From the NCBI GenBank assembly GCA_947489605.1, contig CANLEG010000004.1, positions 1 through 45,544 of the forward strand: a DNA stretch of 45,544 nucleotides, given 5' to 3'. The notes below the pieces were generated by a model. The model saw only the letters and a program-made list of their open reading frames with translations, ran no database searches and had not been told where the DNA came from. Each line of letters opens with the position of its first letter. Positions within the stretch are counted from its first letter, which is position 1. Origin of the DNA: Actinomycetota bacterium (lineage in GTDB: Bacteria > Actinomycetota > Actinomycetes > Nanopelagicales > Nanopelagicaceae). The position numbers and the translations under genes are program-made. Shown here piece by piece: positions 12,469-30,868 of this stretch.

Positions 12469-12476
12469 GGTGTGCG

Positions 12477-12550
12477 TATGACTGGTGGGAATCGAACCCA
12501 CGACCTTCCTCGTAGTCAGTGAGGTGCTCTATCCGCTGAGCTACAGTCAT
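12477..12550 (-). tRNA. tRNA, anticodon ambiguous (GAC/Val by position)
   Basis: A cloverleaf is readable: acceptor ATGACTG/CAGTCAT with discriminator A, D-arm GCTC/GAGC with AGCGGATA loop, T-arm GTGGG-TTCGATT-CCCAC. The anticodon arm is irregular. CCTCA and CGAGG pair with an A-C mismatch at the loop, giving loop CTGACTA (anticodon GAC), but position 37 is T and the variable region is 6 nt. The ACTACG stretch resembles tRNA-Arg(ACG), yet that register does not form a stem. No CCA is encoded. The acceptor stem is flanked by a further inverted TGCGT/ACGCA, so the precursor may be extended. A functional isoacceptor cannot be asserted. Confidence 0.8.
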
Positions 12551-23810: not shown

Positions 23811-24020
23811 GGCAAAATCATTCACGAGATTGTTTGTTTTGTCACTCCCCTCTGCTATCTTTTCCTGGGTCAAGAAATCAAGCGTTAAGCCCTTCGGCTA
23901 GCTTGATACCAACCGCGCTAACCGCGCACGGTGGTTCCGATGGAAGACCTGCTGGCGTTGAAACTCACCGTCAGAAGAGCGGATCTTCTGTTTATGGGGT
24001 CCATTAAGGGCTGGTTTGTT

Positions 24021-25098: not shown

Positions 25099-26025
25099 AT
25101 GAAGAACGAGGATGAGAAGTTAGAGGCCGAGCTTTGGGAGACGGCTTCCAATTGTGATGGTGAAGAGAAAGTTGATGCGTTAATTCAGTTGAGTTATCGC
25201 TCGTTTAATCGCGGGGATCATGCGGAATCTTTGGCGCTATGTGAGACTGCGCGGGATTTGTATGAAGCACTTGGTGCGGGTGCAAATACTTCAACGTTGG
25301 CACATATCTATACCGGTATTGGGTATTCGCTAAATAGATTGCGTCGTCACACCGATGCTGCTGCGGCTTTGGATCGTGCGGTTGTTTTGTATCGCGAGAT
25401 TGGATCGACGGAGGCTGTTGTGCAACTGCGATGCGAAGGTGATTCTTGGTATGACGCGAAGGAATATGAGAAGGCGCATGGCGCTTATGTTGCGGCGATT
25501 AATGAGGCGAATCCAGATGTTGCCGATCGCGAGGTTGCAATTAATTATGCGAATGCGGGAAGTGCGTTAATAAAGTTAAAGCGTTGGAGTGAGGCTTTGA
25601 CTAATTTCTTAGCGGCGAGGGCGATTTATAAGACGTTGAAGATGCCGGGTGAGATTGTGCACTGCGATGAAGAGATTGCGCTCTGTTATTACTGGCTGGG
25701 CAATGGCATGGAAGCTTTGCATCATGCCCAACTTGCAATGGATTTTGCAGACACCGCTGAAGATGATTTCCATAAGATGTGGGCGGTTGCTCGGATGGGA
25801 TTAGCGAAGAAGGTTTTGGAAGAGTATGACGAGGCGTTGGAATTATTTGCCGATGCGAAGTCGCGGATGGTTCGGGCAGAGAATCCGAATTGGCGGGCCG
25901 TAATTAAAATGGAACGGCAGGTTGCATCGATCCTTGTGATTAAGGGACGAGTTTCTGAGGCGCAAGAAATTGAGCGACGCATTGCGGCAATGGCTGAGGT
26001 TGTCTTCGATGAGGGTGAAGAATAA
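25099..26025 (+). CDS. Tetratricopeptide repeat protein
   Basis: A 308-residue cytoplasmic protein built almost entirely from TPR-like helix pairs (for example YTGIGYSLNRLRRHTDAAAALDRAVVLY, ALTNFLAARAIYKTL, ALHHAQLAMDFAD). GAAAGAGG lies before the ATG. The guanine-rich third codon positions make its codon use look different from most neighbours, which may indicate transfer. It is probably co-transcribed with the membrane protease. Its last 60 coding nt recur at 27045-27104, beyond the convergent amidohydrolase. Confidence 0.8.
   Translation: MKNEDEKLEAELWETASNCDGEEKVDALIQLSYRSFNRGDHAESLALCETARDLYEALGAGANTSTLAHIYTGIGYSLNRLRRHTDAAAALDRAVVLYREIGSTEAVVQLRCEGDSWYDAKEYEKAHGAYVAAINEANPDVADREVAINYANAGSALIKLKRWSEALTNFLAARAIYKTLKMPGEIVHCDEEIALCYYWLGNGMEALHHAQLAMDFADTAEDDFHKMWAVARMGLAKKVLEEYDEALELFADAKSRMVRAENPNWRAVIKMERQVASILVIKGRVSEAQEIERRIAAMAEVVFDEGEE
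25964..26023 (+). repeat. Donor copy of a 60-nt gene-end repeat
   Basis: The final 60 nt of the TPR gene just before its stop match 27045-27104 at 54 of 60 positions, in the same orientation. Confidence 0.85.
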
Positions 26026-27044: not shown

Positions 27045-27104
27045 AAGAAATTGAGCGACGTATTGCGTCAATGGTCGAAGTTGTCTTCGATGATGGTGAA
27101 GAAT
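27045..27104 (+). repeat. Echo of the TPR gene 3' end
   Basis: 60 nt at 90 percent identity to the last coding nt of the TPR gene. Read in the original frame it gives EIERRIASMVEVVFDDGEE, nearly the TPR C-terminus, but without the stop. It lies directly upstream of, and partly inside, the open frame of the next gene, which reads it in a different frame. Confidence 0.85.
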
Positions 27105-28502: not shown

Positions 28503-28646
28503 GGGACTCCTTACTTGGACTCGGCTTGAAGTTTAATACTTGGCCCTTGGAAATAGCTTCCATAAACAGCTTTTTGTTTTCCACATTTCGTTAGCAACAA
28601 AAAATATCAAAGTTAGCACCAGGTTAGTTTTCGCCTGCCCGTTTCT

Positions 28647-28720
28647 TTCTCGAAACAAGTGAGCACGCCGCCAGCGTTCACTCACTTGATTTCCCTGCTA
28701 ATCGCAGGGGATTTCGAGAA
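28647..28720 (+). ncRNA. Predicted three-way-junction leader RNA (copy A)
   Basis: Closing stem P1: TTCTCGAAA (28647-28655) with TTTCGAGAA (28712-28720), 9 bp. P2: CAAGTGAG (28656-28663) with CTCACTTG (28681-28688), 8 bp, extended by ACGC/GCGT inside. P3: CCCTGC (28693-28698) with GCAGGG (28704-28709). The structure ends 2 nt before GGAGG of the peptide ORF, a riboswitch-like placement. It matches no class I know. Confidence 0.6.
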
Positions 28721-28731
28721 TGGAGGATGTT

Positions 28732-28827
28732 ATGGATCTTGGAAACGCAATCGCAGTTACTGCGATTATGGCCAACATTATGATTGCAGTCATAAGTTGG
28801 CTAATCGCTCATCGTAAGAAACGATGA
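28732..28827 (+). CDS. Small hydrophobic membrane peptide (copy A, 31 aa)
   Basis: ATG at 28732 is preceded by TGGAGG at a 5-nt spacing. The product starts MDLGNAIAV, is hydrophobic through residue 26 and ends with the basic tail HRKKR. It shares the pattern MD-x-G-xx-IA-x-N-x-I-A-x-W with the copy B peptide although many codons differ. Size, topology and structured leader resemble type I toxin peptides, but no antisense RNA is proven. It could also be a small regulator of a membrane complex. Confidence 0.6.
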   Translation: MDLGNAIAVTAIMANIMIAVISWLIAHRKKR

Positions 28828-28901
28828 GAGTAGGCAGTACCAAATCCCTCTAACGGAGGGTAGGTGGCTCGGGAAGAAATTCCCGGACCATCTGGCGAAA
28901 G
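28808..28901 (+). ncRNA. Conserved 3' hairpins of copy A
   Basis: CTCATCGT/ACGATGAG (28808-28815 with 28821-28828) folds over the peptide stop codon. CCCTC/GAGGG follows (28846-28850 with 28856-28860). Then AGGTGG..CCATCT encloses CGGGAA-GAAA-TTCCCG (28862-28893), trailed by GGCGAAAG. The 41-nt block 28861-28901 differs from copy B at one base only, more conserved than the peptide codons. Confidence 0.55.
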
Positions 28902-28961
28902 CGTATCTTAAGAAATGGCTTTGCAGTTGAATTCTTAACAAATATTGCAAACTACTTTAAG

Positions 28962-29768
28962 TTAAACAGTTCGGGAACCGATTAATTCTCCCGCTGCATT
29001 TACTAACAAAACTACATCTAGTAGTGCCACCAACATAAGAAGCTTGAAGAGAATAAATTTCGGGGCAAAGATACTTAGCGTTGCAGCGATGATTCCGATT
29101 ACAAGGATTGGCGTATTTGCACTTGCGCTATTTAGAACAATTGTGGCTGCGATAAGAAATGTTGCCGCGATAAGCCTTGATGGGATACGGCCTAAAGTTA
29201 TTGGAAGGCTTTGGATTCCACTTGCTTTATCTTCCCTAAAATCTTTCAAAACATTTGCGAAGTGCGCGGACATACCAAGTAGGCCGCCGGCCCAAAGTAA
29301 CCACAGTGGTGGTGTGCGATCGGTAGAGATAACGAGAGCTGCTGGCAGAAGTGCAAAGGCAAGTGCGTAAGGAATTGGCGAGAGCGCAGTTGGCTTTAAG
29401 TAGAAGTTATAAGCAACACCGATCCCGATACCCAGAATAGAAATTGATCCAGCCTTTAGCCCAAGTGGGCCAAGAAGATTTACGAATAATGCAATTGGCA
29501 TCATGATAAAAATTGCACGCTTTAATTCCGCTGGTTTAAGTGCGCCAGAAACCAATGGCTTGTTGTTTCGATTATGTTTTAAATCATCGCGGAAGTCGTA
29601 GAGATCATTGGTCCAACCGACTATTAATTGACCTAGGAAAATACCGAATGCGATTATAAACGCGGGGCCTTCCCACCAAAGTTGGGTAGCGAGCAAGAAA
29701 GTAACTGTTGTTACAAGAAGCGTTGGACCAAAGTGAGATGCAACTAAAAAGCCTTTAATCTTGACCAT
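28962..29768 (-). CDS. ubiA: UbiA family prenyltransferase
   Basis: A 268-residue polytopic membrane enzyme with about eight hydrophobic helices. The first Asp-rich motif is NDLYDFRD at residues 54-61 and the second is NVLKDFREDKASG in the middle. These bind prenyl diphosphate through magnesium. KPLVSGALKP is the conserved loop after the first motif. Family members prenylate quinone precursors, chlorophyllides or lipid headgroups, and the acceptor here is unknown. The start at ATG 29768 fits the family; the longer frame to 29909 is antisense of repeat copy B. A TATTCT box lies 5 nt upstream. The gene is bracketed exactly by the 340-bp repeats. Confidence 0.88.
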   Translation of the reverse strand: MVKIKGFLVASHFGPTLLVTTVTFLLATQLWWEGPAFIIAFGIFLGQLIVGWTNDLYDFRDDLKHNRNNKPLVSGALKPAELKRAIFIMMPIALFVNLLGPLGLKAGSISILGIGIGVAYNFYLKPTALSPIPYALAFALLPAALVISTDRTPPLWLLWAGGLLGMSAHFANVLKDFREDKASGIQSLPITLGRIPSRLIAATFLIAATIVLNSASANTPILVIGIIAATLSIFAPKFILFKLLMLVALLDVVLLVNAAGELIGSRTV

Positions 29769-29868
29769 AGCTAAGAATAATTGATTAACAGTTTTAAAGT
29801 ATCCACATTGACAGTTGAAAAAACTTTTCCAAATTTCTTGCCGGGCTAGTTTTCGCCTGCCCGTTTCT

Positions 29869-29944
29869 TTCTCGAAGCATGTGAGCACGCTCGCCAGCGT
29901 TCGTCTCACTTGTTTTCCCTGCTAACCGCAGGGGATTTCGAGAA
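29869..29944 (+). ncRNA. Predicted three-way-junction leader RNA (copy B)
   Basis: P1 TTCTCGAAG/TTTCGAGAA (29869-29877 with 29936-29944, one G-T pair). P2 CATGTGAG/CTCACTTG (29878-29885 with 29905-29912, one mismatch), with an inner ACGCT/AGCGT of 5 bp. P3 CCCTGC/GCAGGG (29917-29922 with 29928-29933). Most changes relative to copy A keep the pairing. Confidence 0.6.
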
Positions 29945-29955
29945 AGGAGGATGTT

Positions 29956-30039
29956 ATGGATTATGGAAAATGGATTGCATTCATTGTGATCATCGCCAAC
30001 TTGATACTAGCTATCTTGCACTGGCGATCGGCCTACTAG
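29956..30039 (+). CDS. Small hydrophobic membrane peptide (copy B, 27 aa)
   Basis: ATG at 29956 follows AAGGAGG by 5 nt, a near-perfect ribosome binding site. The product MDYGKWIAF... is one hydrophobic helix ending HWRSAY. Compared with copy A it keeps MD, Gly4, Ile-Ala, the central Ala-Asn, Ile/Leu-Ala and Trp while codons and several residues changed, which suggests selection on the peptide. The basic tail of copy A is lost. Confidence 0.6.
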   Translation: MDYGKWIAFIVIIANLILAILHWRSAY

Positions 30040-30123
30040 CGCGAACTGGTAGGCCCGTTACCAAAATCCCTCTGACAAAGGGTAGGTGGCTCGGGAAGAA
30101 ATTCCCGGTCCATCTGGCGAAAG
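30030..30123 (+). ncRNA. Conserved 3' hairpins of copy B
   Basis: GGCCTAC/GTAGGCC (30030-30036 with 30049-30055) folds over the peptide stop codon with a sequence unrelated to the copy A hairpin at the same place. A weaker CCCT/AGGG follows (30068-30071 with 30079-30082), then the nearly invariant CGGGAA-GAAA-TTCCCG stem within AGGTGG/CCATCT and GGCGAAAG (30084-30123). Confidence 0.55.
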
Positions 30124-30187
30124 ATTACCGCAAACAAAACTAATTAAGTAAGAAAACCTTGCAAAATCACTAACTACTTTAAGTTAC

Positions 30188-30868
30188 TTATTGAGGCTTT
30201 GGAGCTTCGATCACTTTCTGTAATTTTGGTTCCTCGGTAGGAATACGTTCTTCAAGACCCGCGATTTCTTTCATTACACGTTCAATTCCATCATTAACGT
30301 GGATTAATGCAAATGCTAAGAAACGATTGAACTCTTCGCCGACATCTTTATCAAATAATATTCCGGAAGACTTCTTGCGATTCGAAACGTGGAAAATAAA
30401 GTCTCCCCCATCAGGGCTTGCGCCAGCACCCAACCACTTATCGAATTTCCATTCTGCGGTGTTTGTGCTGCCATTGAAAACCAAACGGTCGGTTGTTAAA
30501 TAAACTTGACCAGTATCTTTATAGATTTGAATTTCTTCACCTGGGATAAAAGTTCCACGTTGTGCGCCAACGCGGTAACGAATTCCGGCAACAACTGGGA
30601 TGCTAAAACCTTGGCTTGATCCAACATATTGCCCAGCTGTTCTTCCTGCTTCGTGATACTGACCGATACCGGCCCAGATAACTATTTCACCGGCCTTAGT
30701 AACCATTTCATGGTTTTCAGAATCTTCGCCATCTTGCACACTGATGAATGCCTCTTTTAATTTGGCGAGAGTTGCAACATCTTCAGACCACTCTTTATGC
30801 AAACGCTCGACTTCGCTTTGGGCTTTCTTGCCCTGGCGATCACCAAACAAGTCGTTAAAGAATCCCAT
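30188..30868 (-). CDS. Uncharacterised protein with PH/GRAM-like middle region
   Basis: A 226-residue cytoplasmic protein. An N-terminal charged helix (KKAQSEVERLHKEWSEDVATLAKLKEAF) is followed by a beta-rich stretch (GTFIPGEEIQIYKDTGQVYLTTDRLVFNGSTNTAEWKFDKW) that reads like a GRAM/bacterial PH domain, and a C-terminal helix with a Pro/Glu tail. It overlaps the upstream SnoaL-like gene by 1 nt (TAATG), so the two are translationally coupled. The function is unknown. Confidence 0.65.
   Translation of the reverse strand: MGFFNDLFGDRQGKKAQSEVERLHKEWSEDVATLAKLKEAFISVQDGEDSENHEMVTKAGEIVIWAGIGQYHEAGRTAGQYVGSSQGFSIPVVAGIRYRVGAQRGTFIPGEEIQIYKDTGQVYLTTDRLVFNGSTNTAEWKFDKWLGAGASPDGGDFIFHVSNRKKSSGILFDKDVGEEFNRFLAFALIHVNDGIERVMKEIAGLEERIPTEEPKLQKVIEAPKPQ

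Follow-up and report, generated by a model that had tools for sequence, protein, structure and literature searches.

What is the folded RNA leader that stands directly before a tiny open reading frame (ORF) on this stretch of DNA, and what does it serve? A first-pass annotation of the 45,544-nt stretch analyzed here (the window) had described, at 28647-28720, a riboswitch-like three-way junction through which ligand binding or temperature could control translation of the peptide. The junction was confirmed from the sequence, with P1, P2 and P3 where the annotation had placed them. In this copy (copy A), P1 has 9 bp (TTCTCGAAA at 28647-28655 with TTTCGAGAA at 28712-28720), P2 has 8 bp (CAAGTGAG at 28656-28663 with CTCACTTG at 28681-28688), the inner P2 stem has 4 bp (ACGC at 28665-28668 with GCGT at 28674-28677), and P3 has 6 bp (CCCTGC at 28693-28698 with GCAGGG at 28704-28709), or 8 bp counting TT/GA; GGAGG follows at 28722-28726. 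The copy A leader has a minimum free energy of -40 kcal/mol (z -4.4; 0/200 shuffles equally good), and the leader of a second copy, copy B, reaches -40.8 kcal/mol (z -4.0 against shuffles). The account of copy B stood as regards a G-T pair in P1 and a fifth inner pair (ACGCT/AGCGT), and overlooked a T-T mismatch in P2 (CATGTGAG/CTCACTTG). Also overlooked was an outward extension of P1 over the Shine-Dalgarno (SD) sequence, in which UUUC (28642-28645) pairs with GGAG (28722-28725); this outer helix is broken by a U-U mismatch in copy A and is uninterrupted in copy B.

The junction is, moreover, only the first third of a repeated unit of about 360 nt, a context absent from the annotation. Copy A spans 28577-28964 and copy B 29799-30190, and their alignable parts are 79-93% identical. 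The parts follow one another in the order DnaA-box-like site, TANNTT box, junction with SD, ORF, two conserved 3′ hairpins and a conserved terminal block. The junction is the 5′ part of an almost fully folded, peptide-coding mRNA of about 270 nt. The features of the two copies are as follows.

28577-28585, plus strand: copy A DnaA-box-like site TTTTCCACA, 48 nt upstream of the TANNTT box
28625-28630, plus strand: copy A -10-like box TAGTTT, putative for the sense transcript, from the positional conservation of TANNTT
28642-28726, plus strand: copy A three-way junction, whole, from sequence, folding and covariation (covariance model R1, 136 bits); P1 28642-28655/28712-28725, P2 28656-28663/28681-28688, inner stem 28665-28668/28674-28677, P3 28691-28698/28704-28711
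28722-28726, plus strand: copy A SD GGAGG, largely paired in outer P1 (ensemble unpaired probability 0.23-0.42)
28732-28827, plus strand: copy A ORF of 31 aa, MDLGNAIAVTAIMANIMIAVISWLIAHRKKR, with a hydrophobic segment and a +4 tail (pN/pS 0.39 within its type)
28842-28901, plus strand: copy A conserved 3′ hairpins CCCTC..GAGGG and AGGTGG-CT-CGGGAA-GAAA-TTCCCG-A-CCATCT (R2, 117 bits)
28902-28964, minus strand: copy A 3′ block up to AACTACTTTAAGTTA, from conservation; partly eroded in this copy
29799-29807, plus strand: copy B DnaA-box-like site GTATCCACA, from comparison of copies
29847-29852, plus strand: copy B -10-like box TAGTTT, from comparison of copies
29864-29950, plus strand: copy B three-way junction, with SD GGAGG at 29946-29950 within P1 (R1, 128.6 bits)
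29956-30039, plus strand: copy B ORF of 27 aa, MDYGKWIAFIVIIANLILAILHWRSAY, from sequence and coding constraint
30064-30190, plus strand: copy B conserved 3′ hairpins and terminal block, from conservation (R2, 131 bits)

At the DNA level, a search of 296 genomes from the same family found the element in 13. With covariance models R1 and R3 together, the count rose to about 28/296 genomes of this one family, across several genera, and contigs that carry the element often hold two or more copies. R1, built from 12 close copies, reaches diverged relatives in other genera (E 1e-10 to 1e-3), in which the sequence differs almost everywhere and what is kept is the P2 hairpin (CRCGC CGCCA GCG), the SD and the upstream box. 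R3, built only from the diverged relatives and without the window's copies, recovers the window's copy at E 1e-6, so the homology is reciprocal; its structure string contains four spurious pairs at the 3′ end, and its matches agree with those of R1. The P2 loop CGCCA is nearly invariant though the flanking stems vary, and a third subfamily shows the related loop CCGTCA.

Across 395 genomes sampled from the class, all positives belonged to this same family. Named records with matches are freshwater actinobacterial assemblies (Powell Lake, Lac Pavin, the UFOp-RH reservoir series and a Ca. Planktophila MAG), and we infer that the host group is the freshwater Ca. Nanopelagicales. Of 30 pattern matches in the contig database, those outside freshwater actinobacterial records fail R3 and are attributed to chance. 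We rejected a phage origin, as phage records gave no match and the single IMG/VR pattern match fails R3; the 3′ pattern had no IMG/VR match. An integron-like cassette (attC) was likewise rejected on inspection, which revealed no conserved RYYYAAC/GTTRRRY pair.

Many element-bearing contigs also carry tRNA-Val(gac), at 12476-12550 on the minus strand in the window and likewise in L032, L033, L034, L035, L128 and L131. L032 (10850-11865) contains a repeat of a unit made up of tRNA-Val, terminator and element, along with a degenerate remnant of tRNA-Val, suggesting a variable region at this tRNA. Two full copies lie among tRNA-Ser, tRNA-Gly and tRNA-Val genes at L128 7166-9124. In three closed genomes (L127, L137), the element is found a few kb from genes that read, by eye and from their protein starts, like UbiA, LexA, NrdR and NrdJ; upstream of the element there was no sign of a LexA box. 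Elsewhere in the window, a 60-nt direct repeat (25964-26023 and 27045-27104, plus strand, 90%) brings the 3′ end of a 308-aa ORF before a 186-aa ORF as well, and flanks a stretch of about 1 kb with a minus-strand 292-aa ORF, resembling an insertion or duplication scar.

Paired positions that drift independently among homologues would speak against the fold, and they do not drift in this way. When 11 relatives are aligned by sequence only, 8 pairs are changed on both sides, a number reached by 0/500 shuffles, and 91% of cells pair compared to 40-46% with partners slid. In a model-fitted alignment of 28 distinct sequences, which leans to the model, 24 of 34 pairs covary. Whole-element consensus folds comprise 57 and 78 pairs, of which 21 and 9 are doubly changed, and include ORF-internal hairpins, a helix between the ORF and the 3′ region (AUGCGAA/UUCGCAU) and pairing of 5′ GCC with 3′ GGC. 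In each of 27 copies tested, the ORF region is more stable than synonymous resampling gives on average (mean z -2.6). Consensus energies for sense versus antisense are -61.7 versus -57.5 and -83.3 versus -71.9, and variants on the sense strand give 91/122 G-U cells versus 9/3 A-C cells. On this comparative evidence, the sense strand is the one under selection, and comparison shows its RNA to be conserved as a structure from the TANNTT box to the 3′ hairpin. By ensemble folding, the SD is mostly paired in all copies. This pairing is above that of shuffled leaders only in the copies from genera g11/g12; the window's own subfamily does not exceed shuffles because its pyrimidine-rich leader pairs GGAGG anyway. 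Short 5′-3′ helices can close the molecule, with the 3′ hairpin partly closed onto the 5′ end; in copy A, the 3′ hairpins are followed by GGCGAAAG, which is able to pair with the 5′ TTTTCGCC.

The ORF encodes 27-39 aa, with one length per subfamily, and the other frames mostly contain stops. Values of pN/pS are 0.20-0.60 in most groups; the type B ORFs (winB, L012, L013) give 0.92, with few changes. Comparison across copies shows a real, constrained peptide. It has one hydrophobic 17-residue segment (KD 1.2-2.5; 1.6-2.5 in most members) and a positively charged C-terminal tail (+1 to +4), as in MDLGNAIAVTAIMANIMIAVISWLIAHRKKR and MELNDVATLVIAIANLILRVWEMRKGRRRNTDGPDQTAT. These peptides have the size, helix and tail of type I toxins (<60 aa, a hydrophobic helix and usually a cationic C-terminus). 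Searches against Pfam, NCBIfam and PHROG gave no convincing match, and the Fst, Ldr, TisB, Hok, Ibs and holin-like toxin profiles gave no relevant match up to E=10 with HMMER filters on. In g11/g12 copies (L053-L061, L083-L087), an overlapping out-of-frame AUG (AUGNAUG) precedes the ORF and opens a frame of 2-5 codons, changed in L056; it might couple translation, as mok does for hok.

Upstream, NTATYCACA precedes TANNTT by 48 nt (47 in two) in all 16 aligned g11/g12 homologues, and g1 copies have this motif or a near variant at the same spacing. The sequence between the two boxes is not conserved, and TANNTT is at the same place in the aligned copies, one excepted. In the complete relative G126, the same boxes occur immediately ahead of an apparent dnaA gene (named by eye), and the oriC of G126 contains CTATCCACAATGTTATCCACAG. 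DnaA is therefore the likely binder of the element's box, a DnaA-box-like sequence (TTATTCACAG) that we take as a putative DnaA target. When 8 genomes were searched for the box at this spacing, the matches were the known copies, a single decayed one and four chance-looking sites.

Beyond the 3′ hairpin, a block of about 65 nt is conserved in the g1 type, with an inward-facing -10-like motif. On the minus strand of relatives it reads CTTACA, 17 nt, TGCTATACG and then the hairpin base, making these motifs a candidate antisense promoter. In a generic promoter scan, sites were no commoner than in shuffles, and the proposed antisense promoter was not among them. The two ends of the element also differ in how they decay. 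Of the strong R2 matches, 13 pair with an R1 match and 10 more, away from contig ends, have no junction, whereas no R1 match lacks the 3′ part. One of the 10 junction-less copies retains the upstream box and one retains the AUG. In the G271 copy, an internal deletion removed P2, P3, the SD and the AUG, and at L192 1501-1635, minus strand (G003:C9:2884-3018), a deletion has left the upstream box region immediately next to the 3′ hairpin and terminal block, with both ends retained. It is thus mainly the translated half that is lost. A costly peptide or a useful 3′ half would lead to this pattern; a 5′-truncating mobility mechanism would look alike in its 5′ loss.

We hypothesize that the element belongs to a previously undescribed family of type I toxin-antitoxin-like modules, a reading to which we give about even odds. 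Membrane type I toxins commonly have a hydrophobic segment and a positive C-terminal tail (PMC8309996), and in the full-length AapA1 message the SD is paired, with a 5′-3′ interaction (PMC8167048). The features of the peptide together with the predicted AapA1-like SD structure account for the fit. We also count in its favor the covariation, the selection on the sense strand, the ORF structure beyond what the codons give, the coding constraint, the reciprocal homology of R1 and R3, the conserved block with its inward-facing motif, the deleted G271 copy and the one-sided decay (10 copies without junction, none in the reverse state). Repeated copies also occur in the ldr, ibs and aapA families. 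Under this reading, the full-length message would be translationally silent because folding hides the SD and the start region, in the manner of AapA1 or hok messages. Repression would be reinforced by an antisense RNA whose start lies in the conserved block beyond the 3′ hairpin. Transcription would respond to DnaA or replication status, and the peptide, once released, would act on the cell's own membrane. A more specific formulation, which we put forward tentatively and regard as rather less probable, is a DnaA-controlled family of small-peptide messages, with an RNA of about 270 nt folded from promoter to 3′ hairpin through the coding region, that would link replication state to membrane-peptide release and in which lone 3′ halves may be anti-peptide RNAs.

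Against the toxin-antitoxin reading stand the negative promoter scan, an SD pairing that surpasses shuffled leaders in g11/g12 alone, the lack of a match to known toxin profiles and the pN/pS of 0.92 in the type B ORFs; the 5′ loss could stem from mobility as well. Several of these observations can be read otherwise. The peptide could be a small, non-toxic membrane protein, either a regulator or a partner in a membrane complex, and its message could owe its structure to a need for stability or for protein binding at the invariant P2 hairpin CRCGC-CGCCA-GCG. Purifying selection on the ORF is consistent with this, as is a loop that stays nearly CGCCA between variable stems and recurs as CCGTCA in the third subfamily. 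A housekeeping partner would not be expected to occur in multiple copies, patchily (about 28/296 genomes) and with no constant neighbor gene, nor to lose its translated half in many copies, and we consider this explanation unlikely. More improbable is a non-autonomous mobile or selfish repeat whose termini (the DnaA-box side and the AACTACTTT..GTTAC side) are recognized in trans, with peptide and fold serving the element. Contigs with several copies would suit such a repeat, as would the position of copies behind gene stops or terminators and close to tRNA-Val(gac), the 5′-truncated copies and the internal deletion that retains both ends (G003:C9:2884-3018). However, 13 copies compared by eye have no target-site duplications or clear terminal inverted repeats, several copies have neighboring genes in common, as from segmental duplication in a variable region, and the coding constraint and fine RNA covariation exceed what a dead repeat needs. 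No clean empty site was found in close relatives, and the genes flanking the G126 copy are not adjacent in element-less relatives.

The reading of the first-pass annotation, a ligand-binding riboswitch or RNA thermometer controlling translation of the peptide, we now regard as very doubtful. It drew on real features, since a conserved three-way junction does precede the peptide ORF and take in its SD, its structure is conserved by covariation upstream of the ribosome binding site, and the G-U-rich outer P1 could melt. Against it, no Rfam family is found at the element, even at a permissive threshold, which rejects known structured RNAs; the gene downstream encodes a tiny, repeated hydrophobic peptide and is neither metabolic nor transport-related; and apart from the P2 terminal loop there is no conserved internal pocket. 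Covariation also runs on through the ORF and 3′ UTR, although an aptamer would not require so extended a structure. Nothing but the structure itself favors a ligand or thermal switch, and we keep its probability low because a structured leader alone makes no aptamer and the fold continues through the gene.

If the element is a type I toxin module, it would represent a new family; in open-access full text, a type I toxin module from this bacterial order, or one with a DnaA-box promoter, is apparently unreported. In lakes, the acI actinobacteria rank among the most abundant bacteria. Although their genomes are strongly reduced, some hold several copies, and the covariance models make the element annotatable.

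With translation-controlling riboswitches, the element shares a compact multi-branch leader at the ribosome binding site, but it has no Rfam match and no metabolic target gene, and its structure spans the whole message. A SAM-IV riboswitch lies in the same window (23868-23985, plus strand, 73 bits, well above the Rfam gathering score). The strongly folded message with long-range closing resembles hok/sok, and AUGNAUG in the g11/g12 copies recalls mok; however, there is no homology, and the overlapping frame has just 2-5 codons and is changed in L056. Peptides of Fst/RNAII and the Fst/Ldr superfamily are similar in having about 30 residues, one hydrophobic helix and a charged C-terminal tail, e.g., ..AVISWLIAHRKKR (PMC8167048). 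Unlike them, the element's peptides have no profile match and no PxxxGC motif, and no shared bidirectional terminator was found. In Helicobacter pylori, aapA/isoA is present in several copies per genome, as the element often is. The two are also alike in a short hydrophobic peptide with a cationic tail, and the pairing of the SD, with a 5′-3′ interaction, in the full-length aapA message (PMC8167048) is predicted for the element too, although they have no sequence relation and the antisense RNA of the element is only proposed. What the element has, and the description of aapA/isoA does not, is a DnaA-box-like promoter and extensive hairpins within the ORF.
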